Shown here piece after piece: positions 7,566 to 25,595 of a stretch of DNA of 25,595 nt; position 1 is the stretch's first letter, and each line of letters opens with the position of its first letter. This DNA comes from a virus: positions 1 to 25,595 of the IMG/VR virus record IMGVR_UViG_3300005747_001293. The stretch is one strand, 5' to 3'. Both the position numbers and the translations under genes were made by a program. The notes beneath the pieces were generated by a model. That model had not been told where the DNA came from. It ran no database searches and saw only the letters and a list, made by a program, of their open reading frames with translations.

Positions 7566-8030
7566 ATGGGTATTGAAATGAGAGAGGCGCAGAACTCTGA
7601 AAACACTGCAAACCAAGATCTGTCAAACTGCACTGTAGTGGCGGAAGTAACTGTTGATATGATCCTTAATGACCTTGCACAAGGTAGAAACAAAGAGCAG
7701 ATTCGACAGAAGTATGCTTACAAGGATGAGAACGGAACTGTTAGACCATTCGAGAAGTGGATGGTAGATCAGATGTTCAAAGATCCTTCTCTACGAGGTA
7801 AGAAGCCTGCAAGAAGAAAAGTGTTACCATTTCAATTTAAAGGTACAACTACTTCTACTGTGACTCCAGCAGAGCCTAATACCGTGATTGAAGTTGTAGA
7901 ACAAGGAACACATCCTTATCCAGACGAGCCTAAGCATAGCATTCCAGGCACAGAAGGCGGACATCAGTTTAATCCACCTACCAACAGTGTTGCTTTTTCT
8001 GAGAACGGTGTAGATTTCGATATTGACTAA
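7566..8030 (+). CDS. Unknown protein with HTH-like segment and acidic C-terminal tail, 154 aa
   Basis: 154 residues; an in-frame ATG at 7578 is an alternative start. Residues ~30-80 (ILNDLAQGRNKEQIRQKY, then W/F-rich helices and LRGKKPARRK) look like a small helix-turn-helix-type, basic, possibly nucleic-acid-binding region. The middle is rich in Pro and Thr and probably disordered. The C-terminus is acidic (ENGVDFDID), resembling the acidic tip of the SSB-like protein encoded next. Upstream is an AT-rich 32-base gap and downstream the 25-base gap carrying the shared element. A role in ssDNA metabolism beside SSB is possible but inferred. No family is recognised. Confidence 0.75.
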   Translation: MGIEMREAQNSENTANQDLSNCTVVAEVTVDMILNDLAQGRNKEQIRQKYAYKDENGTVRPFEKWMVDQMFKDPSLRGKKPARRKVLPFQFKGTTTSTVTPAEPNTVIEVVEQGTHPYPDEPKHSIPGTEGGHQFNPPTNSVAFSENGVDFDID

Positions 8031-8038
8031 TCTTTAAT
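8030..8038 (+). promoter_or_regulatory. Candidate control element ATCTTTAAT upstream of the SSB-like gene
   Basis: The 9-mer ATCTTTAAT begins 26 bases before the ATG at 8056. The identical 9-mer begins 26 bases before the rIIB ATG at 13453, and both genes are closed by hairpin terminators. It could be a promoter -7-type box, since Bacteroidota promoters use TAnnTTTG, which it only partly matches, or a leader or translation signal. No clear -33 element was found. Confidence 0.4.
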
Positions 8039-8055
8039 CTTAATAATTATAACTA

Positions 8056-8838: not shown

Positions 8839-8844
8839 TTTAAC

Positions 8845-8875
8845 AAGGGGGAGTAGAGAGATCTGCTCCCCTTTT
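8845..8875 (+). terminator. Rho-independent terminator after the SSB-like gene
   Basis: AAGGGGGAG (8845-8853) pairs with CTCCCCTTT (8866-8874) to make a 9-bp stem with one G-U pair. The loop has 12 bases, and a run of four T lies at 8872-8875. It begins six bases after the stop codon at 8838 and ends 13 bases before the primase start. Confidence 0.8.
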
Positions 8876-8888
8876 AACTACCTGATAC

Positions 8889-9905
8889 ATGGCAGTAGAT
8901 TCAAGAGATAGTAATGCAAATCTTTCTGTAGAAGATATCAGAGCAAGGGTAAGTGATATTGATATATTCAAATATTACTGTGAACCATTTGAGAAATTAG
9001 GTAAGAAGTTCAGTTCAGAATTACGTAAAGATCCTGTACCATCCGCAGTTATATCAGACCTTAAATCGGGTATAAGATATACTGATTTTGGTTATAGGGA
9101 GCATAGTTTTGACTCTATAGGTTATGTGATGTACAAGTACTCACTTACATTTAGAGATACATTGACTATGATCGATTCTGATTTTAACATCGGACTGTCT
9201 TCCGGTATGAATCTGGCTACTGTTGTAGCACCTGTAATAAGTAGAAAAACTTATAAGATAGGGTGTGGCATACAGATACGTACTATACCATGGTCTTTAT
9301 TGGATAGAGAATACTGGGGTCAGTATGGCCTGTCTATAGAGCAGGTGAAGCCTTTTCATGTAAAACCTATATCTCATTATTGGATAAACGGTAATCGATA
9401 TTCAGCCCCTAAGTGTACTTATGCATATGCGGAACACACTCCTAGATTCAAGATATATTCACCTTTGAATCCGGAGAGAAAGTGGTTCGGTAATGTAAAG
9501 TCTTCTGATATCCAAGGCAAAACATCTCTGCTTCCGTTTGGTGATAGATGCATAATAGCATCATCTCTTAAGGATGTTATAGTTATACATTCTTTTGGGG
9601 TGCATGCAATTGCATTTCAATCTGAAGCAATGTTGCCTCCAGAAAAATTTATGAAAATTCTAAAAGGTAGGTATGATAAAGTAGAAGTTTTGTATGATAA
9701 TGATATTACAAATCCGGACAATCCTGGTCAGACAATGGCCAATAAGATATGTTCTAAATATGATTTGACTAATATTGTCATTCCTGCAGAGCTGAATTGT
9801 AAGGACATTTCTGATGTCGTAGAGGCTCACGGACCTATAACAGCAATATCTATAGTAAAGAGAGTTCCATGGCAACTAGAAGAAAAGGTAGAAGAAAAGG
9901 TGTAA
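8889..9905 (+). CDS. DnaG-type (TOPRIM) DNA primase
   Basis: 338 residues. The N-terminal ~110 residues follow the layout of a DnaG CHC2 domain (DIFKYYCEPF, FSSELRKDPVPSAV, YTDFGYREHSFDSIGYVM, LTFRDTLTMI) but lack the zinc-binding Cys/His set. A TOPRIM-like region follows: SSLKDVIVIHSFGVHAIAFQSEA (about 225-247), then LYDNDITNPDNPG, which holds the DxD metal-binding pair at D270 and D272. It should make RNA primers for the PolA replisome. The usual TOPRIM Glu is not obvious before SLKD, so catalysis deserves checking. It has no helicase-binding C-terminal domain. The tail EEKVEEKV comes from a 12-base tandem repeat inside the 37-base overlap with the next gene. Confidence 0.82.
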   Translation: MAVDSRDSNANLSVEDIRARVSDIDIFKYYCEPFEKLGKKFSSELRKDPVPSAVISDLKSGIRYTDFGYREHSFDSIGYVMYKYSLTFRDTLTMIDSDFNIGLSSGMNLATVVAPVISRKTYKIGCGIQIRTIPWSLLDREYWGQYGLSIEQVKPFHVKPISHYWINGNRYSAPKCTYAYAEHTPRFKIYSPLNPERKWFGNVKSSDIQGKTSLLPFGDRCIIASSLKDVIVIHSFGVHAIAFQSEAMLPPEKFMKILKGRYDKVEVLYDNDITNPDNPGQTMANKICSKYDLTNIVIPAELNCKDISDVVEAHGPITAISIVKRVPWQLEEKVEEKV

Positions 9906-10312
9906 GTCTTATAAAGAGTAAGGCTACAGTTATAGATGGTATCAAGTTCAAGTCAAGGCTTGAAGCGCATGCTTATAAAGAGCTTAAGAAAGCCAAGATA
10001 AAATTTAAGTACGAAGAGGATAAATTCACTCTCGTAGAAGGGTTTAAACCTATATCACAATCTTGGGAGTTCAGATATAAGAAGTTTGCACCTGTGCAAA
10101 ATGCTATAAGGTCTATAACATACACACCTGACTTTACCTGTCCTGATATGAACTGGGTTATAGAAACAAAAGGCAGAGCTAATGAATCTTTTCCTATGCG
10201 GTGGAAACTGTTTAAAAGATACATAGCTTCTACAGGTAAGCCTACAGTTCTATTCATGCCTACTAATAAATCACAAGTAGATATCTGTATACAGGAAATA
10301 CTAAAATTATGA
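9869..10312 (+). CDS. T7 endonuclease I-like Holliday junction resolvase
   Basis: 147 residues with the PD-(D/E)XK set of the phage endonuclease I family: E32 in FKSRLEAHAY, D88 in YTPDF, and E99 and K101 in WVIETKGR. These match the E, D, ExK order of T7 endonuclease I. It should cleave four-way and other branched DNA before packaging and during recombination. Length is close to T7 gp3 (about 149 residues). The first ~12 residues (ATRRKGRRKG) are strongly basic and are read from DNA that also encodes the acidic primase tail. The start overlaps the primase by 37 bases, and the stop overlaps the next start as ATGA. Confidence 0.88.
   Translation: MATRRKGRRKGVSLIKSKATVIDGIKFKSRLEAHAYKELKKAKIKFKYEEDKFTLVEGFKPISQSWEFRYKKFAPVQNAIRSITYTPDFTCPDMNWVIETKGRANESFPMRWKLFKRYIASTGKPTVLFMPTNKSQVDICIQEILKL
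9878..9901 (+). repeat. 12-bp perfect tandem repeat, dual-coding
   Basis: AGAAGAAAAGGT occurs twice without a gap at 9878-9889 and 9890-9901. It lies wholly in the overlap of the primase and resolvase genes. In the primase frame it gives the repeated acidic EEKV tail; in the resolvase frame it gives the repeated basic RRKG. Because the unit is 12 bases, gain or loss of copies keeps both frames. Confidence 0.9.
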
Positions 10313-10671
10313 TACACAGTGGCCAGCACTTAAACTGGTTAAGATCTTTAGAGAGAGGGGACCTTATAGGTCTATCATACTACAACGGCATACAGCCGGG
10401 TATAATTCACAGAGTACGTAAAGGCGATTGCAAGATCTGGAGTTTTACTGGCAAGTATCCATACAACACAGATATAGTAGAGGATCTACCTTATGAAGTG
10501 GATTGGATACCTGTGCAAGAGGGTCAATACTATCTACCTAAAGAAGAACATACTGTTCGATTAAGGTATATAAAAACCCGTGCTTATGAACGTGTGATAC
10601 CTTACCCTAAAGATTTTATCAGTGATAAGACAAATAAAATTATTAATCATGTTAAAGAAAGATTGTTTTAA
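10309..10671 (+). CDS. Unknown protein, 120 aa
   Basis: 120 residues, rich in aromatic residues and beta-prone (DLIGLSYYNGIQPGIIHRV, CKIWSF, WIPVQEGQYYLP), with a helical C-terminus (TNKIINHVKERLF). No family is recognised. It is translationally coupled to the resolvase gene by ATGA overlap and ends directly against the rIIA start (TAAATG). It is therefore almost certainly co-transcribed with both. No function can be assigned. Confidence 0.72.
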   Translation: MIHSGQHLNWLRSLERGDLIGLSYYNGIQPGIIHRVRKGDCKIWSFTGKYPYNTDIVEDLPYEVDWIPVQEGQYYLPKEEHTVRLRYIKTRAYERVIPYPKDFISDKTNKIINHVKERLF

Positions 10672-13413
10672 ATGAGTATAAAAACTATTGATCGGCAAGA
10701 CACCGGAACTAAAGGTGTCGAAAAGAAGATTGATGCAGGAGCTGAAAAGCTTGTGTATGACATCTTACAGCAGACTCAATATTCTACTCCTATTCAGTCT
10801 ACTGTTCGTGAGTTGACCACAAATGCGTGGGATTCGCAACGGGAGAAAGAAGTAGCTATTGAGATCCTTACAGGCAAAGCCAAAGTTGAGGATTATTATA
10901 TTGAGAGGCATGGTGATCAGTATGAGGACAGCAATTTTGATCCTACATACTATGACCTAAAGCATCTTGATACTGAGAACAACACAGTTGAACTCACATA
11001 CATACAGGAAGAAGGTACAGGATTTTGTGATACATTCATTGTTCATGACCACGGTGTAGGTCTTGGAGATAAAAGACTTGAAGGTGTACTTAGTCTAGGT
11101 TATTCTACTAAGCGTAATACTTCAGAGGGCTTCGGTGCTTTCGGTCTGGGTGCAAAGGTTGCATTCTCTACAGGTGTTGCTATGTATACAGTGGAAACTG
11201 TGCATAATGGTAGGAGATTCAAGTGTGCCTGCTACCCTTATCGTACTGAATTTGTCATCTCTAAGTTTGCTAAAGATGGTACTATGAATGATTTTATAAC
11301 ATTCAGTGATGGTACCAAAGTATACTATGAGAAGACAGATGAGAAGAACAATACCAAGGTAAGTTTCGGGGTTAAGAAACATAACCGATATTCTTTTCGT
11401 GATGCTGTAGACCAGCAGTTGATCTATATTGACGGTGTAAATTTTACTGTTAAAGAAATAGAGTCAGATGGCAGAGAGTATACTTACAGAAGCAACTCTA
11501 CTAAAGCTGAAGTAGTATACAACTCTGAATCTTTGATCATCAGTAATGGTACTGTGTTCAACAGGCCTCACATCGTTATTGTGAAAGACTCATCTGATGA
11601 GTCAGGTATCAACTATGGTTATGTAGACTTCCGTGAGTTGGAGTTGCAAGATATGTACGGATCTATAGGTTTTAAGTGTCCTATGCGTCAGACTTATCGT
11701 GATGAGACAGGTAAAGAGATAGTCATACAAGAGGGTGTAAGTGTTACTCCATCTCGTGAGAAGGTTATCTGGAATGATGCTACAAAGGCATATATCCTAT
11801 CCGTTATAGATAAGGCTACAGAAGAGGCATCTCAGATCGTAGAAGATAAACTGCAGAACTCAACTGAGATCTTTGATTGGCTTGAGCAGTGTACTAAGAT
11901 CTTTCATAGAAGTAACTCTGATGATATCATCAATAGGATGTCTAACATCATTAATAATGATGATCTGTCTCCAGAGTTCCCTGGTAATTCTGATCTTAAG
12001 TTCTTACCTGTAAGTAACTTCTTTGGTAGTAGAATCAAAGTTGAAAAAGTTACTGTAGACTACAGGGGTAAGATAAAGAGAGAGGATGTAACCTCATGGC
12101 AATCTTTCAACTTTGAGTCCATCTATATTAAGGATAATAACTACAATCAAGTTAAGGACCTTTATATCTGTAAAGGTTTAGATAAGGGTAGTTTTATATC
12201 TATTTCCTTTAAAGGATGGGTGGATAAGGAGTCTAAGGATGATTCTATAAAGTCTCTTGAAGAGGGTTTATCAGACCTTATTGATCTACAAAAGAGTAAG
12301 TATTATGCTTTGGAAGAGCTTGTTGAAAGTGATTCTAAGGTAAATTCTTATGATGAAGTAGAAATACCTGCAGATTTCTTTGAAAAAGCTAAAGACATTG
12401 AGCTTAAACAAGATGCACTTACTCCTGCAGAGCAACGTGCTCTTGAGAACAAAGAGGTAGGTTTTACTTTAAGGTATGATCCAGATGCTCATAGAAGTTT
12501 TTCTCGTAAGACATGGACATGGGATAAGGTAGAGCCAAGAGGTAAGGATCTTATAACTACAGAAAAAGAAGTGTATTATGGTGGTAAAGAGGATGAAAAG
12601 GCGCTTGTTATGGCAGCAGGTATACTCTATCCTTCTGCACCTATTCTTAATAACTATGCTTCTTGGGGTGAAGCTCCTAGAGCTTTGTTTACTCTTAGTC
12701 CTTCTGTGCACTATAATTCTTGGTACAGAGATAGAGAGAAGCCGTATGTAGAAGATGACAACTATCCTCAATTGATCAGACTTAGTAGCTCTGCTATAAA
12801 GAGGGTAGAAAAAGCAAATGCTTTGTCTCATATAGATAATTTCTTCTTCTTTAGAACAAGTCATAATACTATTGAGACACATCCATCTGTACGGACAGCT
12901 TATACTATTCGTAGGATAGGGGATGTTTGGCCTTTCTTTGACAATTATCTTAGGTTTTTTGACAATATTGACAATAAGATATCAAGTAAAGCAAAGACTC
13001 TTAGGGACTATCTTGATAAGCATAGCAAATACTTTTGGGCAATCAGTCAAAATAATAATAATCCTATTTGGGATAGACTGGACGAGCTGTATAAGTTCCA
13101 ACTGTATTGTGCAAGCCTGGACTCTGAAGATGAAGATAGAGATAAGAAGATAGCTCAAAAGAGCTTTGAAACTTTTGTCTTTACCGATATCGTTGGAGCT
13201 AATGTAGCTGATCTTGATATGCTAAGTTTGTTTGAAGAACTTAAGTCTTATGCCTCAGTACTTGATCCTGTACTTAGTAATATGCCTTGTAATTCTCTTA
13301 TGCGTAATGATACTGCAGATGAGATCAAGAAGTATATTAAACTCTATGACAGAGATCAGTGGGAGTGGGATGAAGAGGCTGTTATAAAACACGCCTTAGC
13401 ATCATTACAATAA
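10672..13413 (+). CDS. rIIA: rIIA-like protein with GHKL ATPase domain
   Basis: 913 residues. The N-terminus has the GHKL/Bergerat ATP-binding motifs in order: VRELTTNAWDS (E47, N51, D54), VHDHGVGLGD (D126-G130) and the G2 glycine-rich loop GFGAFGLGAK (153-162). The long C-terminal part is charged and mostly helical, without obvious membrane segments. Size, domain order and the rIIB-like gene next to it identify the T4 rIIA family, which is also reported from crAss-like phages. In T4, rIIA and rIIB counter the lambda Rex exclusion system and affect lysis and membrane state; the molecular mechanism is unclear. A topoisomerase- or Hsp90-type protein is less likely, given the partner gene. Confidence 0.87.
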   Translation: MSIKTIDRQDTGTKGVEKKIDAGAEKLVYDILQQTQYSTPIQSTVRELTTNAWDSQREKEVAIEILTGKAKVEDYYIERHGDQYEDSNFDPTYYDLKHLDTENNTVELTYIQEEGTGFCDTFIVHDHGVGLGDKRLEGVLSLGYSTKRNTSEGFGAFGLGAKVAFSTGVAMYTVETVHNGRRFKCACYPYRTEFVISKFAKDGTMNDFITFSDGTKVYYEKTDEKNNTKVSFGVKKHNRYSFRDAVDQQLIYIDGVNFTVKEIESDGREYTYRSNSTKAEVVYNSESLIISNGTVFNRPHIVIVKDSSDESGINYGYVDFRELELQDMYGSIGFKCPMRQTYRDETGKEIVIQEGVSVTPSREKVIWNDATKAYILSVIDKATEEASQIVEDKLQNSTEIFDWLEQCTKIFHRSNSDDIINRMSNIINNDDLSPEFPGNSDLKFLPVSNFFGSRIKVEKVTVDYRGKIKREDVTSWQSFNFESIYIKDNNYNQVKDLYICKGLDKGSFISISFKGWVDKESKDDSIKSLEEGLSDLIDLQKSKYYALEELVESDSKVNSYDEVEIPADFFEKAKDIELKQDALTPAEQRALENKEVGFTLRYDPDAHRSFSRKTWTWDKVEPRGKDLITTEKEVYYGGKEDEKALVMAAGILYPSAPILNNYASWGEAPRALFTLSPSVHYNSWYRDREKPYVEDDNYPQLIRLSSSAIKRVEKANALSHIDNFFFFRTSHNTIETHPSVRTAYTIRRIGDVWPFFDNYLRFFDNIDNKISSKAKTLRDYLDKHSKYFWAISQNNNNPIWDRLDELYKFQLYCASLDSEDEDRDKKIAQKSFETFVFTDIVGANVADLDMLSLFEELKSYASVLDPVLSNMPCNSLMRNDTADEIKKYIKLYDRDQWEWDEEAVIKHALASLQ

Positions 13414-13426
13414 AAGTAATTTACGT

Positions 13427-13435
13427 ATCTTTAAT
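13427..13435 (+). promoter_or_regulatory. Candidate control element ATCTTTAAT upstream of rIIB
   Basis: Same 9-mer as at 8030, starting 26 bases before the rIIB ATG, in the 39-base gap after rIIA. The preceding bases (TTACGT) do not match those at 8030, so the shared part is limited to the 9-mer plus general AT-richness. Promoter or leader function is inferred. Confidence 0.4.
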
Positions 13436-13452
13436 TTATAAAACTGTTACAA

Positions 13453-14634
13453 ATGATAACAATTAATGTTATTGATGACCAAATAGTTGGTTCATGCGGT
13501 GAAACTCCGTTTTCAATGCCTTTTGATAAAGCTGTTTACGATACTTTAGAATCTTTGGCTTATGCAGCTGAAGAAGCTGAGACCGTAGATGAGTACAACA
13601 GTATTATCGCAGAAGGCGAATCTTTGGTTCTTGGAGCTAAAGAGTTTATAGGGTCTGTTATAGAGACAGAGTGTGAGTACATCAAAGTAGATCCTATGTC
13701 CAAAGAGTTCTTTCTACACTACAATGATCAGACATCAGATATTGCTATGCCTCAAGCATTGGTGGATAGAATCATCTATTCTCAAGATAAGGGTATAGAT
13801 TTCATGCCTCTTGTACGTATGTGGGTAAGATTCTTGCGTAATCCTAACCTTAACAAAGAAGGTAAAGGCGCTGCTTTCGGTGAGAAGTTCTTCAACTTTG
13901 TAAATATGAAGTATGTACACCCTAAACTCAAGCAAGAGTTTATGGAGGAGCATGGTCTTACAGAGGAAGCGGCTGAAGAAAGAGCTACTATGTACCAGAT
14001 GAAGATCACTAAAGAGGGTCTACTCAACGGCTACAAGGTTTCTAGAGAGATCGAGTATAAGTATGAGGCAGATGAAGATGGTGAACTTCGTACAGTTCCA
14101 CGTTATGCAAGAACTTTCAACCCTGATACAGGTGAGATCGACTCTGATGGTAAACCGGAACATGTAGAGGATAGACTATTTGAACCATCTATGATGGGTA
14201 GTGGTGGTGATCCTTTCAGTTGTGAAGGACCTAATGGATATGATTCTAATGGGCATTTCATTAAAGTAGGTTGCAAGCATGCATTAGACAGTTGGGATAT
14301 GGTAAACATTAACGACAATAGCTCATGTGTCAAAGGTCTTCATGTAGGCGGATTAAAATACATAGCATGGTATAGTGGTGAGATACACAATGTCTTCATC
14401 GATCCTATGCATGTAGGTGCAGTTCCAGACGATGTGGACGGTGCCATCCGATGCAAGGAGTACTTTGTACATAGTTCGTTAGCAGGCGTTAATGGTTCTA
14501 TATATCACAGTTCTACGTATGCTAAAGCAACTGATGAGCAATGGAAAGCCATGTTAGAAGAAGCTGTTGCAGTTCATATTGAAGCAGTGGAAAAACAAAC
14601 AGCAGATTTAAAAAGACTACAGTCTTTGGTGTAA
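13453..14634 (+). CDS. rIIB: rIIB-like protein
   Basis: 393 residues. The C-terminal third carries DSWDMVNINDNSSCVKGLHV (ending near residue 297), then GLKYIAWYSGE and the FIDPMHVGAVPDD segment. This CSxGLHVGxxxY-type block is the one I associate with the conserved C-terminal domain of T4 rIIB and its relatives. The N-terminal region is acidic and helical. It lies directly after rIIA in the same orientation, as in T4, but with its own 39-base leader carrying the shared 9-mer and a strong terminator after the stop. It may therefore be transcribed separately and more strongly than rIIA. The function is presumably joint with rIIA. Confidence 0.83.
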   Translation: MITINVIDDQIVGSCGETPFSMPFDKAVYDTLESLAYAAEEAETVDEYNSIIAEGESLVLGAKEFIGSVIETECEYIKVDPMSKEFFLHYNDQTSDIAMPQALVDRIIYSQDKGIDFMPLVRMWVRFLRNPNLNKEGKGAAFGEKFFNFVNMKYVHPKLKQEFMEEHGLTEEAAEERATMYQMKITKEGLLNGYKVSREIEYKYEADEDGELRTVPRYARTFNPDTGEIDSDGKPEHVEDRLFEPSMMGSGGDPFSCEGPNGYDSNGHFIKVGCKHALDSWDMVNINDNSSCVKGLHVGGLKYIAWYSGEIHNVFIDPMHVGAVPDDVDGAIRCKEYFVHSSLAGVNGSIYHSSTYAKATDEQWKAMLEEAVAVHIEAVEKQTADLKRLQSLV

Positions 14635-14651
14635 TCATTTTTTATTCACAC

Positions 14652-14684
14652 AGGGCCGGGTACTTAATTGTGCTCGGCCCTTTT
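14652..14684 (+). terminator. Strong Rho-independent terminator after rIIB
   Basis: AGGGCCGGGTAC (14652-14663) and GTGCTCGGCCCT (14670-14681) form a 12-bp stem with two G-U pairs around a six-base TTAATT loop. A T-run at 14681-14684 is followed by more AT. It is markedly GC-rich against its surroundings. It lies 18 bases after the rIIB stop and 14 bases before the exonuclease ATG. Confidence 0.9.
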
Positions 14685-14697
14685 ATTATGTAAACTA

Positions 14698-15558
14698 ATG
14701 TTAGAAATTATAAAAAATGATTTAGTAGATGATCTGGACTTGACTCCTTTTAATAACGATCAAAGTAAAATCGCTCTTATAGATGCAGATAGCATGCTCT
14801 ATTACTGCATGAAAGAGGATACTACGTTTGATGAGATGAAGTTGAAGCTTGACAACTTTATAATTAATGTTCTTTCAGAGCTTAATTGTAAGTATTACAC
14901 AGCTTTTACTACGGATTCAAGGTCTGTATTCAGAAAAGAACTTGGTAAAACCAGAGAGTATAAGGGTAATAGAAAAGGTAGAGAGACTCCATATCTGTTC
15001 TATGCACTACGTGTATATGCTCAAAGAGAATGGGGATTCTATAATGTTCCTAGAATAGAAGCTGACGATGCAGTTGCTATCTATGCTAACGGTCTAGGTA
15101 ATAATCCTTTTATAGAGTCTGTTATCTGTAGTCCAGATAAGGATGTTCTTAGACAGATACCCGGCACACATTATAACTATCAGAGAAATGAGTTTGTATC
15201 TACAACAGCTGAAGATGCAGCAAAGTTTCTATGGATCCAATGTGCAGCTGGCGATAGTGTCGACGGTATTCCCGGTATACCTGGTATAGGTGTAAAACGT
15301 GCAGAGAAAGCTTTAGAGTCTATTGTAGAAGAAGATTTTTCATTAAAGATTTTAAAGATGTATCTTCAACAGATGGAGAATAGCGATATTGCTTCCTCCA
15401 AAGAGGCTACAGACAAGTTTAAAGAGACATTAGATCTTGTATATGTTCTAAGATCTTCTTATGATCTTAATAGGCTTGGCATTTCTCTACCAGATCTTAA
15501 GTATCAAAATGTTTTAAAAGTTCTAGGTAAATGGCAAAACGAGCAAGGACTGGATTGA
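14698..15558 (+). CDS. 5'-3' exonuclease / flap endonuclease (FEN, T5-exo type)
   Basis: 286 residues from ATG 14698; a longer TTG-started frame from 14668 would begin inside the terminator and is rejected. Acidic active-site residues occur in the expected order: DAD (29-31), EADDA (121-125), SPDKD (145-149) and GDSVDGIPGIPGIG (185-198). The last combines the second metal site with the helix-hairpin-helix DNA grip. The region RKELGKTREYKGNRK corresponds to the basic helical arch. It should remove RNA primers and flaps, complementing the PolA gene, which lacks a 5' nuclease domain. The 3' end overlaps the next gene by 28 bases. Confidence 0.92.
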   Translation: MLEIIKNDLVDDLDLTPFNNDQSKIALIDADSMLYYCMKEDTTFDEMKLKLDNFIINVLSELNCKYYTAFTTDSRSVFRKELGKTREYKGNRKGRETPYLFYALRVYAQREWGFYNVPRIEADDAVAIYANGLGNNPFIESVICSPDKDVLRQIPGTHYNYQRNEFVSTTAEDAAKFLWIQCAAGDSVDGIPGIPGIGVKRAEKALESIVEEDFSLKILKMYLQQMENSDIASSKEATDKFKETLDLVYVLRSSYDLNRLGISLPDLKYQNVLKVLGKWQNEQGLD

Positions 15559-16286
15559 CTATAAAAAATGCATTAACTGTAAAAGTTATAGGCTATCTGG
15601 ATATAAAAGAAGAGATGAATAGCGATAATATCATAGAGTCTATAGATATTCCGGATTTTACCAAGATATCTTTAGGGAATGTTATTAAGATAGGATCTAC
15701 GAAAGAGCCTTATAAGGTAAATACTATTAAACCTGTAGGCCCTGAAAATAATATTACTTATGAGCTTTCTATCGCTAAAAGAACTAAAGCTTCTTTATTT
15801 ATACTTCCTATGCTGCCAGGCTATAGAGTAACCTATCACTTTAATACTCGGTTACTTAATTGTTTTATAGGTACCCATAGAAGAGATAATGTAATTGCAC
15901 TTCTTTATAGGTTTTCAGCTAAACAAGATTTTATCAAGTTTGAAAATATGCTTTCAGAACTAGATTATTTTATTGATTCTGAAGACATATCAAATAAGAC
16001 AGTTCTTTATACCTTTGATATCCCTATAGAACATCTGGATAACTATGCAGCTTTTATAGAAGGCAGATATTCTGAATTTGATGACAACTATAAGAAGCGT
16101 ATCTTAAAGTTTCATAATAATGGTAAAACTTCTACGCTAGGAAAGATATTGTACAAAGACCCTTCACGTAAAGAAGAGTTGGAGAAAGTCCTAGATCTTA
16201 GTATTGCTATTGATAAAGATGCAGAATTGTATAGTATTCCTAATCTAGAGGAAGAAATTTTAGATTTAGAAGTATACGGCATATAA
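15531..16286 (+). CDS. Unknown conserved-looking protein, 251 aa
   Basis: 251 residues with a basic N-terminus (MAKRARTGLTIKNA). A beta-rich first half includes LFILPMLPGYRVTYHFNT. A mixed second half has AAFIEGRYSEFDDNYKKRIL and repeated charged helices. No catalytic motif, signal peptide or membrane segment is visible, and I do not recognise a named family. Proteins with an EGRYSxF-type block occur as hypotheticals in gut phages, from memory only. The start overlaps the exonuclease by 28 bases, so the two are co-expressed; a DNA-metabolism role is possible from position alone. Confidence 0.78.
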   Translation: MAKRARTGLTIKNALTVKVIGYLDIKEEMNSDNIIESIDIPDFTKISLGNVIKIGSTKEPYKVNTIKPVGPENNITYELSIAKRTKASLFILPMLPGYRVTYHFNTRLLNCFIGTHRRDNVIALLYRFSAKQDFIKFENMLSELDYFIDSEDISNKTVLYTFDIPIEHLDNYAAFIEGRYSEFDDNYKKRILKFHNNGKTSTLGKILYKDPSRKEELEKVLDLSIAIDKDAELYSIPNLEEEILDLEVYGI

Positions 16287-16310
16287 AATCATACAAAATC
16301 ATCACTGAAC

Positions 16311-16565
16311 ATGACTCATATTGATATCTATTTAGATTCAGGAACAATCATGACGGTAGAAGGAGAGTGGGAATCCAAAAGATTCTCATTCTCTTCTGCC
16401 TATTACGAAAACCAGGACATTACAGATGTAATTAAAATGTCTCCTCAAATAGTAAAAGTTATAGAGGAACGAGCTTATCAGCAATGTGTAGAAAGAGAGT
16501 ATGCACGTGCTGAGTTTATAAAAGAACTCTCTAAAGAACAACCAGAAGAGTGGTCGTATGAATAA
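16311..16565 (+). CDS. Unknown small protein, 84 aa
   Basis: 84 residues, beta-prone N-terminus (HIDIYLDSGTIMTVEGEW) and a charged helical C-terminus (IVKVIEERAYQQCVEREYARAEF). No family is recognised. It is preceded by a 24-base gap containing AAAATCAT twice, ten bases apart (16285 and 16295), and followed by the 29-base gap that holds the stem-loop before the lysozyme gene. Function unknown. Confidence 0.62.
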   Translation: MTHIDIYLDSGTIMTVEGEWESKRFSFSSAYYENQDITDVIKMSPQIVKVIEERAYQQCVEREYARAEFIKELSKEQPEEWSYE

Positions 16566-16569
16566 ATAG

Positions 16570-16614
16570 ACTGCTCTTCATAACAAAAAACGTTATGTTA
16601 CAGATAAGAGCAGT
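16570..16614 (+). promoter_or_regulatory. Stem-loop enclosing the lysozyme start codon
   Basis: Outer arms ACTGCTCTT (16570-16578) and AAGAGCAGT (16606-16614) form 9 bp. They continue directly on the 5' side into CATAAC (16579-16584), which pairs with GTTATG (16592-16597). The loop has 7 bases, and 8 bases bulge on the 3' side. The ATG at 16595-16597 lies in the inner stem, so folding of the mRNA could hide the start. Confidence 0.5.
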
Positions 16615-17329
16615 ATTAGTATTTATCATTATAGGGGCTTTAAGTTTTACCGCAGGGTTTTATTTAAGTCGTCTTAGCAAAAAGGTTAAAAAGAAACCTG
16701 TTGTATATACCCATAGTAGTTCTGACAAAATATGGGGTATAGACATCTCACATCATCAAGGCAATGTAGATTGGGATGATGTGCGTGAAGAGCTTCCATA
16801 CTTTATTTTTATTAAAGCAACAGAAGGGTCTACTTTTACTGATCCTAGATTTTCACATAATGTGAAAGAGGCAACTAAAAGAGGATTAAGAGTTGGTGCT
16901 TATCATTTTTTCAGTTATCATTCTTCCGGGAAGAAACAAGCGGAGCATTTTCTGAAAACAGTTTATAGAACAGGAGTAAATATGCCTATTGTTCTTGATG
17001 TAGAATATCAAAAGCATATGAAATCTTCTTCTTGGATAAAGCGTGAAATAAGGGAATTTGTGAACGTTGTTAAAGAGCGTACAGGAAAACTCCCTATAAT
17101 CTATTGCGAATGCTTATACTATAATAAGTATATAAAGCATGTTATCTCTGAAAAATTCCCTACTTGGATAGCTAATTTTAAAAAGCGTCCTCCATGTAGA
17201 TATGATATACATCAGATAACCAATAGACGGAGAGTAAAAGGTTTTAAAGGTCTCATAGACTATAATGAGTTCAATGGGACACGTGAACAGTTTATAGATT
17301 TCTACAACAGGTTATCTATTGATTCCTAA
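16595..17329 (+). CDS. GH25-family lysozyme (endolysin) with N-terminal membrane anchor
   Basis: 244 residues. Residues ~5-26 are hydrophobic and are followed by RLSKKVKKK, giving an uncleaved signal-anchor with a basic flank. From residue ~47 the GH25 muramidase fold is clear: WGIDISHHQGNVDW with D50, FIKATEGSTFTDPRF, GAYHFFSY, IVLDVE with D135 and the probable catalytic E137, PIIYCE, and the late DYNEF. It should cut the MurNAc-GlcNAc bonds of peptidoglycan from the periplasmic side. The anchor suggests a SAR-type endolysin exported by the host, which fits a Gram-negative host. The start codon sits in a stem-loop. The 3' end overlaps the convergent giant gene by 18 bases. Confidence 0.9.
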   Translation: MLQIRAVLVFIIIGALSFTAGFYLSRLSKKVKKKPVVYTHSSSDKIWGIDISHHQGNVDWDDVREELPYFIFIKATEGSTFTDPRFSHNVKEATKRGLRVGAYHFFSYHSSGKKQAEHFLKTVYRTGVNMPIVLDVEYQKHMKSSSWIKREIREFVNVVKERTGKLPIIYCECLYYNKYIKHVISEKFPTWIANFKKRPPCRYDIHQITNRRRVKGFKGLIDYNEFNGTREQFIDFYNRLSIDS

Positions 17330-20300
17330 GATCCACTTTATATTGTTTGCTCCAGGAACAAAATTTGCTGTGTAATGGAACATTTGAGCTCTGTCTCCTT
17401 TTTCAAACATATCTCCTTGAAGAAGATCGACAGATTCATCTGCAGTATTACCCATTATCCGAATAAAGTTTTCTAATAGTCCTAGTGCAGGTATAAAAGA
17501 CCTGTTCAAATTTGCAAGTTCAGCCGGGTTAATGAACATTGCAGTTTCAAGAATGGTACGTGCAAGGAGATCGTGAGCTTTTCTAGAAGCCCAGGTCTCT
17601 TTGTACCATTCTTTTTCATCATCTCCTTTCCAACCCATTGCCATAGACATAAGCATAAGTACAAGTACAGCTCTTACTTCTGCTATACTACTTCTTACAG
17701 CTGCTTGTTGCATCTGATAAAACTTTTCTATAGGCATGTTCTTTATCATAGGGTCTACAGCGTTTTCTTTTATGAATTTATATTCTGCCTCGTATTTCTT
17801 ACGACGCCGCTGATATCTTTCTTCTTGGGCCCCATCCTTATCCCACTTTCCTTCTTTGATCTTTCTTTCTCTTGTAGCTTCTGACATAGCATAATCATCT
17901 AATCCTACTAAGGTTGTAATAAGACCCTTTAAAGATGATGCTGCATTCATAGCCATTGTTGTCCAGGCTAACTCTTCTGCTACTTCTTCTTTAGAGATCA
18001 ACCCTCCTCTAAAGGTTGCAATGTATCTTCCTGTTTCATATTTACCTGTATAGATATCGTACTTTACTTTAGAGCCGAATCTATCTCTTACCATTGCAGG
18101 CATCCATGATTTGAATTGCATTATCATGCTCATGAACAGGTTGTCTTCATATGCAGCTATGCCGAGTTGAGACATATCTCCTCGTATACCTCTCACTTCT
18201 CCAAGGAATCTCATCCTTATCTGGTTACGCACACTTTGATCCAATTCTTTTGTAACCTTTCCATCTTCCACCTCCATTGTTTCTGCCAAAGGTTTAGTTC
18301 CTTCAGGCATATCCTCCAATCTTTGTATCATACCGTTTTCATCAACCGCATGATTAAACAATAGTGCTACTAGCAATCTTCTATCGTTTATTCTATCTGC
18401 AGGTACTAATGGATAGTACATGTAATCACTATCGAGGTATCTGGTAAATGGATCTCCGGTCAGTTCTCTTTCATGGAACACTCTATCACCATCAGAATGC
18501 ACATCAAAATATCCTGCAATTGCCATGTATCTTGATGTATCTTCTGCGAACAACTTTGCAGATTTAAGTAATAGATCATAAGAATAGTTAGGGTTATCTA
18601 TACCTTTTGCAATCCTGAATATAGTAGATGCTCCAGTAGTAGCCAGTGCTGCTTTTACAGGTAGTGTAAGAGTAGACTTACTGAACATAGATAGCATTAA
18701 CCTTGCAACCTTTGCACCTGATACCTTTCTACCTCCCAACATGAACTCTCCAGCCATATTCCTTTCGAAGTTCTTGTATAAAAGCATGTTTATGTAAGTA
18801 TCATATAGCTTTTTAGTTCCCTCAGATACTTCTTTTTTTACAAGCGCTCCTGCCTCTCTTTTAAGTGTTCTCACCCCTTCTTTTTGAACTTCTTCTGACG
18901 AGTGCAAAAGATCACGTATGAATAAGATCTCACTCTCTGCCCTCGAGTTTTCTAAGAACTCATAGAATGTAGATCCGAACTTGACCATTACTTTGGTAAG
19001 ATCTTTTGATATAAGAACTGTATCTACATTTCCTTTAGAGTCTCTAGGTGGGTTCATGTACGGTAAAGGGATAGACTGTGCTGCATCTTTTCCTAGATTC
19101 TCTTCGTTCTCTATATCTAGAGTTACACTTCGAAGCGCATTTTTAGTTATAGATTCTATTACATTTTCTCCAGTAGCCATTCCTTCTACTACACCTTTGT
19201 GCATAGATGGTATGAAAGTAGAGGCTATAGATTTGTCAGCTGCAAGGTTGTTAAACTCTTTCATCTGCTCTATCCAAGCATTATAGTAATCTAAAACAGC
19301 TTTATTCTCCGGCTTTAAAATCTCAGAGTATTCTTTACTGTAATTTTCTACAGCTATTTCTGGCTTGAGTTCAAGAAATCTGAAAAACTTTGGAGATATC
19401 CAAGCATTAGGATTATTGAAAACGTCGTAAGTATTAGAAAAGTATTGCTCTGCTGCTTTGTATTTGTAGTTGTCCTTACCAGCATACTCTTTCTCTTTAT
19501 CTGCTAAGAACTTTTTCTTGAACTCATTGAACTCTTTTTTAGCATCTTCTCTTATCTGATACTTGGACCTCATCCATTTTATACCCTCAGTCTTTTCTTT
19601 CTTGTTCTCATTGCCTTGCATCCTAGAGATCAGCTTATCTCTTTCTTCCCTGAATGCAGGATCAAACATTGTGATCATACGATATCCGGAATCAGTTTCC
19701 CTGATAAGCATATCATATGCATCTCTTGGGTTACCCCACTCTTTTAATGCATTATCAAGTGCAACCCATTTTTGATAATGTTTTCTATAATCCTCATCTG
19801 CTCTTGACCTTGCTTCAACAAGACGATCAAAAGCTTCTTTAAAGAACACATTCTCAACTTCCCCCATAGAAAGCATCTGATTTAAGAACCCTGTCTCTAA
19901 AGAATCCAATTCGTAAAAAGGCACAGTGCCTGAGTTGAACTTGGATGTTACTGCAAGCCTGGATTTAAGTTCTGATTTTATTGCAAGTACAGCGCTCTTT
20001 ACTTCTGCAGATGCATTTTCCAGATCCCTCTTTAACTTTTCTCCTTTCTTTTTGTCTTTCTTAGATATCTCTTCTACATTTCTTTCTGCTGTTACATTCA
20101 GCATTTCAAAAGTTCCGAGCAACTCATATACACTTCTAAGATCCTCAAAGTCTGGATAGTCTTCATCATCTTTCTTTGACTTTTCTAAGAGCTCTTTAGA
20201 GTAGTCTATAAGATACTTGATCTCTGATAAGGTAAATGCCATATCAGATTTATTCAAAAGGTCTTTTACAGTTGTAATGATAGTAGCTATTTCTCTACGT

Positions 20301-22153
20301 GTACCAGGACTACTTTTCTTTTTCTTAAGTACATCTAATTTGTCGTATAGCTTTCTAAGATCTTTATTTATAGTATCTATGTCTGTATACTCCTTAGCTA
20401 AAGGATACTGTGCAAGGAATCTATCTCCATCAAATCCCATAGAGAAGTATGATATTCCTGTAGCCTTGTTTCCATCGTACTTAAATCTTACGTGTGCAGG
20501 TACTAATCTGGATTTTGTAACATCCGTAATACCATACTCCATTCTTAATGCCTCTAAGTAAAAAGACATCTGATCTTCATACCCTTGTATCTTAGTCCCT
20601 CTAAAAGGATCTAAGGTCATTATCGTTTTTTTGCCGACTTTCCTAACATCTTGAGCTAATGGACTTACAAACTTGTAATCAAATACTTGAGCTGTACCAT
20701 TAGGCATTACAAACAACATATCTATTGTACCTGCAGTATCTAGCCGTTCACTGTAGACCATAACTTCTGTAAACAGATCTATCTTCTCTCCCTTTTTCTT
20801 TTTACTATCTTCTATAGCTCCTTTTAAAATTTCTTCTACCCCTCTAGTGAGCTCTTCAAAATGTTTTGTCTGGGTAAAACCAGAATCTTTTTTAAGCTGC
20901 GCTACAGATCTAGGCTCAGGCCTACCTGTATCTACTACATTAAAATCATTTTTATATTTTGTTCTAGCTAGATGGACCATAAGTTCTTCTGCTATACCGT
21001 GCAGGGTCGTTCCTGTTTCTCGTAACAGTTTGCTTCTTTCTTTAGAAGTAATTCTTTTATACTGCTCAAGGCCCCCTACACTACGCATGAATGCGATAGA
21101 AGACTTATCTGTAGCTCTTCTCAATACAGGCTTTCCGTTGATAGTATATCGAGCTATCATACCGTCAGAGCCTTCTAATACCTCCAAAGAAGCAGCATCC
21201 ATTTTACCTTCAAAAAGGTCTTTTGAAAACTCATCCCTTTCTAGACTTTTCTGCTGTGCTACAAGAGTATCCCGGATCATTTCCTGACTCATCTGAGGTT
21301 CTCCTGTAGATGCAAAGATTGTTTCTCTGGTAGATTCAGAGATGGCTTCTGCATAAGTAGTGAGATTCTCATTCAGCATCTTATGTATAGTAGCTTTAAA
21401 AGGATCTCCTATACCGAAAAACTCTTTCAGTTTTCTAACTACACGCTTCCACCATCTTTCATTTCTAGCCTGCTTGTCTGTAAGCTTTTTGTCTAAAGCT
21501 TGAGACACTAAGTTGTTAAGGACAACTTTAGTTATAGCTTCATCTATATAATCTTCTTCAGTATAGTTAAGGGCTCTTAGTTTAGGGTCAGCTAAAACTT
21601 GGCCGTACTCCGGCTCTTTGTATATACGGTCCCTCATAGAAGTATACAGAGGATCATTGGTCTCTTTTAAAGCTACTACCATAAAGTGTATAACCTCTTC
21701 AGGTATCTCACTCTCTTTACCTTCTAAGTATGAGATGGCTTTATCAAGGATGTTTGCGCTGGCTATAATATCTAATTTGTTACCGTCGCGATCCCGGATA
21801 CTTCTTACCATTTGTTCACTTACTCCAAGTTGACGCATAACTGCTCTCATAGAAGCAATTATTTCATTCCTTGTTTCTTCTACAAACTCTTGATCTACTA
21901 CGTCTACACCCCTTTCTGCTAAGTAATCATCTATTCTATCGAATAAAGCATCATTCATTATTACTTTATCCTGTACAGGCATAAATGGAATGTCTGTAGT
22001 CCCGTAACTTTTATTGAATAGCAGAGATAATCTCCTAGACTCTGACATTACATCTACTGCGGATCTTTTTCTGATAAGATCTTCTCCGGTTACTTCTACG
22101 TAACCATTTTTTTCCAGCAGATCTACTGTATTCGTACGTACACTACAAGCCAT
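17312..22153 (-). CDS. Giant multidomain phage protein with RecB/Cas4-like PD-(D/E)XK nuclease domain
   Basis: 1613 residues, starting 10 bases after the upstream RNAP-like gene. Residues 152-156 read EEVIH, with EAIT at 205-208, which looks like a zincin HExxH site lacking the first His. Residues ~385-535 hold a full RecB-type nuclease set: H385 in TLHGIAEEL, E463 in FTEVMV, GTID with D478, VFDYKF with D492 and K494, and QMSFY with Q528 and Y532. Residues ~600-1000 are long charged helices. The C-terminal third has hydrophobic stretches (AALATTGAS, VLVLMLMSMAMGW) and IMQFKSWMPAMVRDRFG, reminiscent of polyvalent or ejected phage proteins. Packaging in the virion with the RNAP is inferred from size and gene pairing, not shown. 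Confidence 0.85.
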   Translation of the reverse strand: MACSVRTNTVDLLEKNGYVEVTGEDLIRKRSAVDVMSESRRLSLLFNKSYGTTDIPFMPVQDKVIMNDALFDRIDDYLAERGVDVVDQEFVEETRNEIIASMRAVMRQLGVSEQMVRSIRDRDGNKLDIIASANILDKAISYLEGKESEIPEEVIHFMVVALKETNDPLYTSMRDRIYKEPEYGQVLADPKLRALNYTEEDYIDEAITKVVLNNLVSQALDKKLTDKQARNERWWKRVVRKLKEFFGIGDPFKATIHKMLNENLTTYAEAISESTRETIFASTGEPQMSQEMIRDTLVAQQKSLERDEFSKDLFEGKMDAASLEVLEGSDGMIARYTINGKPVLRRATDKSSIAFMRSVGGLEQYKRITSKERSKLLRETGTTLHGIAEELMVHLARTKYKNDFNVVDTGRPEPRSVAQLKKDSGFTQTKHFEELTRGVEEILKGAIEDSKKKKGEKIDLFTEVMVYSERLDTAGTIDMLFVMPNGTAQVFDYKFVSPLAQDVRKVGKKTIMTLDPFRGTKIQGYEDQMSFYLEALRMEYGITDVTKSRLVPAHVRFKYDGNKATGISYFSMGFDGDRFLAQYPLAKEYTDIDTINKDLRKLYDKLDVLKKKKSSPGTRREIATIITTVKDLLNKSDMAFTLSEIKYLIDYSKELLEKSKKDDEDYPDFEDLRSVYELLGTFEMLNVTAERNVEEISKKDKKKGEKLKRDLENASAEVKSAVLAIKSELKSRLAVTSKFNSGTVPFYELDSLETGFLNQMLSMGEVENVFFKEAFDRLVEARSRADEDYRKHYQKWVALDNALKEWGNPRDAYDMLIRETDSGYRMITMFDPAFREERDKLISRMQGNENKKEKTEGIKWMRSKYQIREDAKKEFNEFKKKFLADKEKEYAGKDNYKYKAAEQYFSNTYDVFNNPNAWISPKFFRFLELKPEIAVENYSKEYSEILKPENKAVLDYYNAWIEQMKEFNNLAADKSIASTFIPSMHKGVVEGMATGENVIESITKNALRSVTLDIENEENLGKDAAQSIPLPYMNPPRDSKGNVDTVLISKDLTKVMVKFGSTFYEFLENSRAESEILFIRDLLHSSEEVQKEGVRTLKREAGALVKKEVSEGTKKLYDTYINMLLYKNFERNMAGEFMLGGRKVSGAKVARLMLSMFSKSTLTLPVKAALATTGASTIFRIAKGIDNPNYSYDLLLKSAKLFAEDTSRYMAIAGYFDVHSDGDRVFHERELTGDPFTRYLDSDYMYYPLVPADRINDRRLLVALLFNHAVDENGMIQRLEDMPEGTKPLAETMEVEDGKVTKELDQSVRNQIRMRFLGEVRGIRGDMSQLGIAAYEDNLFMSMIMQFKSWMPAMVRDRFGSKVKYDIYTGKYETGRYIATFRGGLISKEEVAEELAWTTMAMNAASSLKGLITTLVGLDDYAMSEATRERKIKEGKWDKDGAQEERYQRRRKKYEAEYKFIKENAVDPMIKNMPIEKFYQMQQAAVRSSIAEVRAVLVLMLMSMAMGWKGDDEKEWYKETWASRKAHDLLARTILETAMFINPAELANLNRSFIPALGLLENFIRIMGNTADESVDLLQGDMFEKGDRAQMFHYTANFVPGANNIKWILGINR

Positions 22154-22163
22154 TTTTTATGTT

Positions 22164-25100
22164 TTAACAGTTTTCTGTAGGGTCGTTATTCTCTTCCTCT
22201 ACAATTCTTCTTATTGTCATTCTTCTAGAAGTAGTGTTAAGATAGTTACGGGATGTATATCCTGTAGTATCAAGCTCTTGCGATTCTGTCATTCTCACTC
22301 CAAAATCACTTTCTACATCTGGGTCTGAGTCTGTAACTACAAAGTTAGCTGTAAGAATGTATTTATTCTTTTCTCTTGCTGCCCCTACTCTTCTAAGTGT
22401 GCTAGGCCTTTTGTCTAACTCTCTTGTAAACAGAAGTCTTTCTTTCTTAGGTGACTTACGTGTTACATACTGAACTACATTATTATCGTTTACCATATTC
22501 TTATGGAACTCTTCTAACAGAGCTTCAGTATTTAATCTTACAGAGTCTGGAGCATTCATCATAACTCCAAAAATATCCTCAGCCATTCTTGCAAAGATAT
22601 CTCCTGGTATCTTATCTAAGAAAGAGAAAGGTGTATTCATGGTGCCTGCTTGCAGCAATGCTGTATAGATAGTGTCTTTTGCTATGCGAGTGTTGTTTTT
22701 AGAGTCATATTCTACTATCTCCATGAAAGAGTCGTATAACGCATCTGCATCATAAACATTCACAGCCTTGAACTCTGGTTCTACAAAATCATTCATAAGC
22801 TCTTGCCCTTCAACAGGAACTCTTACCTCCTGTACTACAGGTATAAGTGATTTCAAGAATATGTTATCTCTTAGACCGTGCGATTTTGAGCGTGTTATTT
22901 TAAGAACCTGTTGTGCAAATGTGTTCTTACCATACAAAAGTCTACTAGAGTAGTTATTTATTTTTTCACCGTTGCTTTGTGGCATATTGTGTAGTATGAA
23001 AGATACAAGAAATTGATCGAATCTTTCAAGCACTCTTAGCTTATCATCCAAAGGCATTCTTTCTTTAGGGTGAGTAAGCTCTTTTACTTTCATAGTATAT
23101 GCATCCCAATAAACTGGAAGATCTTCTGTTGCAACAAAAGCATCTTTGAGGATGTCTGTTGCCATGAAGTTATACTCTTTCATGTCAGACATGAATGTAT
23201 TCTCATCTTCAGTTATACGCTCTGCATTAGGGAATATTCCTTTTGCCATTACAGTTTCATACTGAGCCTGAAGAATCTCCATGTTTGCTCTTGACTTTAC
23301 AATCTTAGTATCGAAAGACTGTGCTGCTATCAAAGATGTCATGTCATCTCCTAACTGCAAGTACACAAGAAGATCCTCTAATACACTTAGTTGATATGCT
23401 TTTTCTTGAGGGCTTAGGTTTTCTACTGTTTTTCCTATCATTCCCTCTAAGGTCTCATCAGCAAAATAGGTATTCTCTCTATCTACTTCTGTAGCGTATT
23501 CATCTTGAAGGCCCGAAAGTATTGCATCATCAAACTTTCTATTCTGTATCGCACCATTAAGGCGTGATCCTGATCTGGCTTTAGATGTCATATACTGTCT
23601 TACTATAGGCTGATTCATAAAGTATACTACAGACTTTAAAGGAACCCCTGCTCTTAGTAGAACTAAGCCGGCGGGTGCCAGGTCTGGGCCTAAATTCAAA
23701 ATGTGAAGTATAGGATTCTTTACAATATCTACAGACGTGTTTACAAGCTGCGATATAGCATCGGAAATTCTTTTTTCTCCTCTTATATCTGTTATCCTAC
23801 CTAGACTCAAAGTGTAATCTACCTCTCCATCTTCATTTTCCTCTACTTCAAAGCCTTCGAAATGTATTCTTATAGGTACGAATATTCTTTCTTCATAAGG
23901 TAGCTCGTACCTATGGTTAAGATTCAATCTTAGGTCTGCTCTTTGCCCTTTTATCTGATGTGTAGAAGCAAGAGCTGATATACCTACAACTTTAGCTCCT
24001 TGCAAGAAAGCTTCTGTGACTCTCATCAAGTTAGGCAAAGTTGTTTCTAAATGGAAATCAGATACTTTACTTAGATCTGGTAAACTGTAATTTCCTTGTT
24101 CTCCGTACAGCTCCTGGATCTTTGCTGCAAGTTCTAGATTGTCATCAGTGTTTACAGGTCTTAAGAACTCGGTCGCTCTTTCTTTTATAGATAGAAGTTC
24201 TTTAGATATCTCCATATATCTGTTCTGTAAAGCACCATCGCTATTTACATCGTAGATGTTAAGCCCTGGGTTCTCTGCTTCCCACTGCTCAAAATCTTTT
24301 TTAGAGATTTCTCCTACTCCTTCTTCTTCCGATATATTAAAGAACTCTGATGCAGCCTCTATAAGTTCTTCGTACATAACTTCAACCTCTTCTCTTGTAA
24401 GGTCTTTTAGTCCTGCAGTAAGATCTACTTGAGTTTCAATATCAAACTCAAACATGTTTTTGATGTCTATTGTCTGTAGATCTGTAGAAGTTTTAAATAC
24501 TTCTGCTAAAGCATTTATAGCCTGCTCTGTAGTTGCTCCTCTACCTAAGAAGTCCTCAAGCTTTCTCTGGAACATGTTCTGCTGTGCCTGAAACCACTCT
24601 CTTTTAGAGGTATGGAATTTAACAGGCTCCATTATTCCTTCTTCTGTGTACCTGTACGATTTAAAGTACATAAGAAGTTTATCAATATCGAAGTCGGAAC
24701 CTGCCTTAGTAACCAATCCTGCAGGGACTACAACTCTAGGTCCGGCACTCTGTGGTAAAAAGCCTTTTACTTTTATTATTTCTACAGAGTGTATGCCATC
24801 AGTAGGAATACGAATACCTATCATATCCAAAAGGGTAGATGTACCTTTCATTACAACTCCATCCACTATTATATCTCCTTCTCTTCCAACAGTTACATTC
24901 TGCCCTATAAGCTCTTTGAACTGGTGTGGTAAGAATACTTCCATCTCCCATTTGCCGTCCGGGTTCTCATAGAACTGTAGTTTTCCATTCTCTACAGTTC
25001 TTCCTGTACGGGTCTTAGCAACTTCGTATCCTAACTCTGGCGCCTGTACAAGTCCCTCTCCTACAAGTTTCTTTTTGATCACTCTTTTTCCAAGCATGCT

Positions 25101-25595
25101 GAAAACCATTGTTTCCATACGATACCTGTCTACAAAATAATCGAACTTGAATGCCCCTCCTTTTTCTTTAAGGTACTCAGCTCCTTCTAGAATTGCTTTT
25201 CCTACATCGTTCTTATCTGCTTCTTCTATAATGATATCAAGTAGAGCCTGATAAGACTCTTCAGACATTGCATATCCTTCTACACCTTCGACCTCTACTT
25301 CTTCTATCTTAAGATCTTTGAGTGTTTTTCTTATACCTCTTCTTGTAAACCCACCTATAATATCATTATGCTCTCTATCAAGATTTTCTACATAACTTAC
25401 TTTGTTTCCATTTTTATCTACAGTATCTTTTTCTGTAGCAATAGGTTGGCCCGACTCGTATAGATCTGAAGAAACCTGTACAGCATGCTGTGTACCACGT
25501 GTAACTTTACCTTTATTGTAAGGACTTATTTCTATTTGTGATCCAAAGAACCTTAGATCATAAGTAAGTCTTGCATTAGGGTCTACATCTTCAGG
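22164..25595 (-). CDS. crAss-like RNA polymerase, C-terminal part with DxDxD catalytic loop (runs off right edge)
   Basis: The frame is open from the right edge to a TAA at 22166-22164, giving 1143 residues. The Met at 25268 is internal, since 109 in-frame codons precede it without a stop. The key site is GSDFDIDKL, with DFDID at 24681-24695. It is preceded by RIPTDGIHS (24786-24812) and PAGLVTKAG. This order matches the beta' double-psi barrel, R-PT-H-S then NADFDGD, whose three Asp bind the catalytic Mg. Downstream helices near 23620-23745 (VKNPILHILNLGPD, then GVPLKSVVYFMNQPI) fit crAss-like RNAP proteins as I remember them. In that family one chain carries both barrels and is ejected with the DNA to transcribe early genes. 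The beta-like barrel is not seen and should lie outside the window. Confidence 0.8.
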   Translation of the reverse strand, partial: PEDVDPNARLTYDLRFFGSQIEISPYNKGKVTRGTQHAVQVSSDLYESGQPIATEKDTVDKNGNKVSYVENLDREHNDIIGGFTRRGIRKTLKDLKIEEVEVEGVEGYAMSEESYQALLDIIIEEADKNDVGKAILEGAEYLKEKGGAFKFDYFVDRYRMETMVFSMLGKRVIKKKLVGEGLVQAPELGYEVAKTRTGRTVENGKLQFYENPDGKWEMEVFLPHQFKELIGQNVTVGREGDIIVDGVVMKGTSTLLDMIGIRIPTDGIHSVEIIKVKGFLPQSAGPRVVVPAGLVTKAGSDFDIDKLLMYFKSYRYTEEGIMEPVKFHTSKREWFQAQQNMFQRKLEDFLGRGATTEQAINALAEVFKTSTDLQTIDIKNMFEFDIETQVDLTAGLKDLTREEVEVMYEELIEAASEFFNISEEEGVGEISKKDFEQWEAENPGLNIYDVNSDGALQNRYMEISKELLSIKERATEFLRPVNTDDNLELAAKIQELYGEQGNYSLPDLSKVSDFHLETTLPNLMRVTEAFLQGAKVVGISALASTHQIKGQRADLRLNLNHRYELPYEERIFVPIRIHFEGFEVEENEDGEVDYTLSLGRITDIRGEKRISDAISQLVNTSVDIVKNPILHILNLGPDLAPAGLVLLRAGVPLKSVVYFMNQPIVRQYMTSKARSGSRLNGAIQNRKFDDAILSGLQDEYATEVDRENTYFADETLEGMIGKTVENLSPQEKAYQLSVLEDLLVYLQLGDDMTSLIAAQSFDTKIVKSRANMEILQAQYETVMAKGIFPNAERITEDENTFMSDMKEYNFMATDILKDAFVATEDLPVYWDAYTMKVKELTHPKERMPLDDKLRVLERFDQFLVSFILHNMPQSNGEKINNYSSRLLYGKNTFAQQVLKITRSKSHGLRDNIFLKSLIPVVQEVRVPVEGQELMNDFVEPEFKAVNVYDADALYDSFMEIVEYDSKNNTRIAKDTIYTALLQAGTMNTPFSFLDKIPGDIFARMAEDIFGVMMNAPDSVRLNTEALLEEFHKNMVNDNNVVQYVTRKSPKKERLLFTRELDKRPSTLRRVGAAREKNKYILTANFVVTDSDPDVESDFGVRMTESQELDTTGYTSRNYLNTTSRRMTIRRIVEEENNDPTENC

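Follow-up and report, generated by a model that had tools for sequence, protein, structure and literature searches.

Does the large open reading frame at the right end of this viral DNA encode an RNA polymerase (RNAP), and if so, of which kind and with which role in infection? The whole stretch analyzed, referred to here as the window, comprises 25,595 nt of an IMG/VR virus record. The frame occupies positions 22164–25595 on the minus strand, extends over 1143 codons with no interruption and is open at the right end of the window, where the N-terminal portion of the gene is missing. Based on ORF calls, tblastn, hmmsearch, structure modeling and structure alignment, it is assigned to the C-terminal 1143 aa of a crAss-like DNA-dependent RNAP of the phi14:2 gp66 type. 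We put the probability at roughly 93% that the sequence represents the C-terminal, catalytic portion of a single-chain, two-barrel RNAP of a crAss-like phage, with homology to phi14:2 gp66 over its whole length and a virion role assigned by analogy. The enzyme is genuine but ordinary, belonging to a kind already known and coming from an uncharacterized lineage.

Identification of the Polymerase

A tblastn search of 50,697 phage records with the frame matched 118 records. Among the matches listed, all belong to crAss-like phages, Flavobacterium Fpv1-type (Fipvunavirus) phages or a few phage contigs; several carry the annotation putative RNA polymerase, and the best record is that of cr108_1 (25% identity over 77% of the query). 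The phi14:2 protein gp66, whose structure is PDB entry 6VR4, matches at 38% over the motif region, while overall identity to gp66 is only about 21%. Searches with the single RNAP sequence against Pfam, PHROGs and viral contigs, as well as with phmmer, gave no match, and detection required tblastn and a family profile. This profile, built from the window and 72 IMG/VR contig relatives with phi14:2 left out, was used for the profile search that the initial annotation had proposed, and the virion RNAP of phi14:2 (6VR4) was the single significant PDB chain (E=1.6e-62, hmmsearch), aligned colinearly over chain residues 1070–2074. A search with a profile containing phi14:2 is circular and was not counted as evidence. 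A profile shifted upstream and built on the closest relative, the contig L025, reached 3.3e-100 over residues 800–1795 of the same chain. Furthermore, an IMG/VR scan seeded with the alignment recovered at least 508 RNAP relatives.

The early assignment to a crAss-like phage RNAP is thus borne out by tblastn, by the profile match and by the structural match described below. Homologous crAss-like RNAPs in GenBank (L006, L007, L011, L014, L015 and similar entries) appear to be mis-annotated, under names such as nuclear pore complex-like, helicase, exonuclease V or DprA-like.

Conservation and Interruption of the Catalytic Motif

Two motifs had drawn attention to this frame, namely RIPTDGIHS followed by DFDID in the order and spacing of the catalytic β′ barrel, and both were found at exactly the positions first given, on the minus strand. 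RIPTDGIHS (24786–24812, residues 262–270), located by a six-frame scan and by alignment, corresponds to the R-x-P-T...S element that is conserved in the catalytic barrel. The same ORF contains, at a spacing of 29 residues, DFDID (24681–24695, residues 301–305), which supplies the three predicted metal-binding aspartates D301, D303 and D305 and aligns to the DFDID of phi14:2 gp66 at residue 1361. The six frames of the window contain four DxDxD strings, and the one at 24695–24681 is the only one with an R-P-[ST]...S element upstream. The other DFDID of the six frames lies in the replication block, where a 154-aa ORF (7566–8030, plus strand) ends in GVDFDID directly before the stop codon; it has no upstream R-P partner, is unrelated to RNAP and carries an acidic tail resembling those of single-stranded DNA-binding proteins.

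Across 73 aligned sequences, R262, P264, D301, F302, D303, D305 and K306 are invariant, and I263 and T265 are conserved in at least 90%. The fourth motif position carries Ile in 64 of these sequences, Val in nine and Gly in none, within an otherwise invariant GSDFD-D-K, so that DFD[I/V]D is present in 73 of 73. The contig set was gathered partly with the pattern G[SF]D[FL]D[VI]DK and is therefore biased, but the named phages gathered by tblastn agree, showing DFDID or DFDVD; Fpv1 has DYDID and cr111_1 has DLDVD. Since phi14:2 gp66 itself reads TKTGSDFDIDK at D1361, the named phages mainly have DFDID or DFDVD and Gly is absent from the alignment, DFDID represents the family norm. The initial annotation had presented Ile as a replacement of the usual Gly; this holds only against cellular β′, and the idea of an unusual substitution was rejected, given GSDFDIDK in phi14:2 gp66 and DFD[I/V]D in all 73 aligned sequences. 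In P23-45 gp96, the motif is DFDGD (PMC10770324). The search signature for crAss-like RNAPs is DFD[I/V]D rather than DFDGD.

The same conservation bears on the idea that the fold has been kept while activity was lost. That the record is a fragment leaves some room for such a degenerate polymerase, but the ORF is uninterrupted over all 1143 codons and keeps all catalytic aspartates together with the residues invariant across the family, which makes this reading very improbable.

In some relatives the motif codons are interrupted. In cr108_1 (MT774385; 9767–10095 of L002), a group I intron (RF00028, 80 bits) lies inside the RNAP motif, between the codons for GSD and YDIDK, and removal of 296 nt merges two annotated “hypothetical proteins” into one frame of 3,766 aa. 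In bajarodcaudo virus 1 (PQ006092; 6450–7400 of L020), an insert that carries an annotated endonuclease follows DFD and breaks the motif; Rfam gave no call for this insert at the gathering threshold. Together, these two cases suggest that insertions recur at the DxDxD codons. In L091, L006, L003 and L014, further relatives that are split or odd, Rfam scans gave no match.

Predicted Fold and the Second Barrel

The AlphaFold2 model of the window protein (pLDDT 78.1, pTM 0.80) is of poor quality over the final ~90 residues. Foldseek against the PDB placed 6VR4 first at 3.6e-22, the next hit being an RNA polymerase II chain at 0.21. In structure alignment with VIA-align, as suggested beforehand, the model matched the phi14:2 RNAP best (Z 28.2 over 804 residues, 3.8 Å), followed by QDE-1 at Z ~10, whereas cellular β′/Rpb1 and AR9 chains aligned at Z 6–7 from about residue 174 onward. 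From the model strands (176–186 to 322–324) and the alignments to β′/Rpb1 and 6VR4, the catalytic, β′-like double-psi barrel DPBB-A is placed at approximately residues 174–324 (24624–25076, minus strand). Downstream of the barrel, a long helix at residues 520–553 (23937–24038, minus strand), in which K534, G538, A541, T545 and Q551 are conserved, is a candidate bridge helix by position and conservation.

The facing barrel is only touched by the window. By register with L025, residues ~1–60 (25416–25595, minus strand) probably form the last strands of the β-like barrel DPBB-B, the remainder of which lies upstream, beyond the window. Because the window begins near the end of this second barrel, L025 was modeled as well; it covers the same region and extends 360 residues farther upstream. 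Its model (pTM 0.85) aligned with 6VR4 over 901 residues (Z 26.8, 3.2 Å), and with QDE-1 and RDR2 at Z ~10 over most of its length. The RNAi polymerases QDE-1 and RDR2 carry both barrels in one chain, and the match of L025 to these enzymes therefore indicates that the chain of the closest relative also contains the facing barrel, as judged from the model. The expectation that DFDID lies in a barrel facing a second one is hence supported for the catalytic barrel in the window model, while the facing barrel was observed in L025 only.

This bears directly on whether the frame could instead be a β′-type subunit of a multisubunit RNAP with a separate β-like partner. Taken by itself, the window would fit such a subunit, as only the β′-like barrel and the last stretch of its counterpart are visible in it. 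The relatives speak against this: L025 and others encode the upstream β-like part in frame with the catalytic part, and the L025 chain models as one 6VR4/QDE-1-like core, so that a multisubunit enzyme is hardly credible and a single-chain polymerase is preferred.

Length of the Chain

Because the gene is cut off at the right end of the window, neither the second barrel nor the full length of this polymerase can be seen in the record; a record overlapping the right end was searched for and none was found. The earlier proposal that the window holds only the catalytic C-terminal part agrees with this picture, as the ORF runs past the right end and the catalytic barrel lies in the C-terminal part of the chain. 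The accompanying description as a giant single-chain protein stands by way of the relatives, the window's own gene being partial: complete uninterrupted polymerase ORFs in relatives are 3,843–5,006 aa long in nearly all cases. Built from the first ~2,000 residues of the giant relatives, a profile matched phi14:2 gp67 at 5.9e-42, mainly over gp67 residues 17–416. Because of these giant ORFs and their gp67-like N-terminus, the polymerase in the lineage of the window is probably a gp67-gp66 fusion, that is, the C-terminal part of a chain of ~4,200–4,900 residues with a gp67-like N-terminus, as far as sequence comparison indicates. Fusions within the transcription block differ among crAss-like phages, and LMMB displays another one, annotated as RNAP catalytic subunit/RNAP subunit.

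Genomic Context and Placement

The next gene of the transcription block (17312–22153, minus strand) encodes a 1613-aa protein resembling the RNAP-associated protein gp65 of phi14:2, with a profile of this product and its relatives matching gp65 at E=1.2e-17. A large same-strand ORF follows the RNAP gene in 25 of 25 relatives examined, most of these being similar to the window protein by blastp. In phi14:2, gp65 is annotated as RNA polymerase associated protein with MS/MS evidence. A weak PD-(D/E)XK match at residues 360–544 of the gp65-like protein accords with the PD-(D/E)XK domain reported in a large transcription-block protein of some crAss-like phages (PMC7886860). The RNAP and gp65-like genes form a standard crAss-like transcription block adjoining a replication block. 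The latter, a convergent replication and lysis block (891–17329, plus strand) defined by annotation searches, contains genes for PolA, a DEAD/ResIII-type helicase, a replication initiator, DnaB, Sak4, MazG, primase, resolvase, RIIA, RIIB, a 5′–3′ exonuclease and a GH25 endolysin. The RIIA-like (913 aa, GHKL ATPase) and RIIB-like (393 aa) genes are adjacent (10672–14634, plus strand), and the endolysin gene (16595–17329, plus strand) overlaps tail-to-tail with the 3′ end of the gp65-like gene.

In the maximum-likelihood RNAP tree, the deep branches of which are long and not firmly resolved, the window clusters with the five IMG/VR contigs L025–L029 (SH-aLRT 100), and this group is nested in a wider assemblage that consists of cr108_1 and lineages made up of contigs alone (SH-aLRT 97) and that falls outside the sampled Intestiviridae, Suoliviridae and most Steigviridae. 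Queries with phi14:2 proteins detected the crAss-like MCP in 7/7 relatives' records and portal, TerL and tail tubular proteins in 6/7 each; none of these genes is present within the 25.6-kb window record itself. PolA at 57–59% identity to that of the window was found in two of the five close relatives. The record belongs to a deep, uncharacterized clade known mainly from contigs, and the finding extends a structurally solved but rarely recognized polymerase family into this large clade.

Proposed Role

The phi14:2 RNAP is a virion component that transcribes early genes (PMC7886860), and three RNAP-associated proteins were detected in phiCrAss001 virions (PMC10172136). By analogy, we infer virion packaging and early transcription for the polymerase of the window. 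The DFDID aspartates in the β′-like barrel would bind the catalytic magnesium ions, with RNA synthesis taking place opposite the β-like barrel just upstream of the window. The enzyme would be packaged in the virion together with its gp65-like neighbor, as in phi14:2 and phiCrAss001, would be ejected with the DNA into the host, and would transcribe the first phage genes prior to any phage protein synthesis.

Two-barrel RNAPs of other phages include non-virion enzymes (PMC10770324), and the polymerase could accordingly be synthesized in the infected cell rather than packaged, as with P23-45 gp64 or the nvRNAPs of phiKZ and AR9. This is improbable, as the nearest relative with a solved structure, 6VR4, is a virion enzyme while aligned nvRNAP chains reach Z ~7 or less, the gene lies in a block of the gp67-gp66-gp65 type whose products are virion proteins by mass spectrometry in phi14:2, and the relatives fuse the polymerase to a gp67-like virion protein. 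A virion-packaged polymerase remains the preferred reading. A further-reaching version of it is offered tentatively and is, on present evidence, rather unlikely to hold in full: the window may come from an undescribed family-level lineage of Crassvirales whose polymerase forms one permanent chain with the gp67-like virion protein (~4,200–4,900 residues), is threaded through the tail and works in the host while still attached, which would make it the equivalent among crassviruses of P23-45's tape-measure-fused RNAP.

Comparison With Known Polymerases

The closest counterpart with a solved structure, phi14:2 gp66 (6VR4), shares GSDFDIDK, is colinear, has the same fold over 804 residues and is followed by a gp65-type gene; in contrast to the gp67-like N-terminal fusion in relatives of the window, its gp67 and gp66 are separate genes. 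The closest named phage by tblastn among the matches listed, cr108_1 (Pipoluvirus, MT774385), likewise carries the RNAP at the C-terminus of one long chain and has a similar gp65-like neighbor and PolA, but its DYDID is split by the 296-nt group I intron, whereas the gene in the window is unbroken. The gp50/gp49/gp47 genes of phiCrAss001 form the same block with the same type of motif (DFDVD in gp50), and their products were detected in phiCrAss001 virions by mass spectrometry (PMC10172136); its RNAP gene is not fused like those of the window's relatives and shows only ~21% identity. Outside phages, the eukaryotic RNAi polymerases QDE-1 and RDR2 share the single-chain two-barrel core and are the second-best fold match (Z ~10), but they are cellular RNA-silencing enzymes with no significant sequence match to the RNAP of the window. 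Bacterial β′ and Rpb1 share the catalytic double-psi barrel, DxDxD and the R-P element, yet they read NADFDGD with Gly, belong to enzymes with two separate large subunits and align in the barrel region alone (Z 6–7). Finally, the tape-measure-fused vRNAP gp96 of P23-45 differs in its DFDGD, as opposed to DFDID here, and the fused partner in the relatives of the window is instead a protein like phi14:2 gp67.
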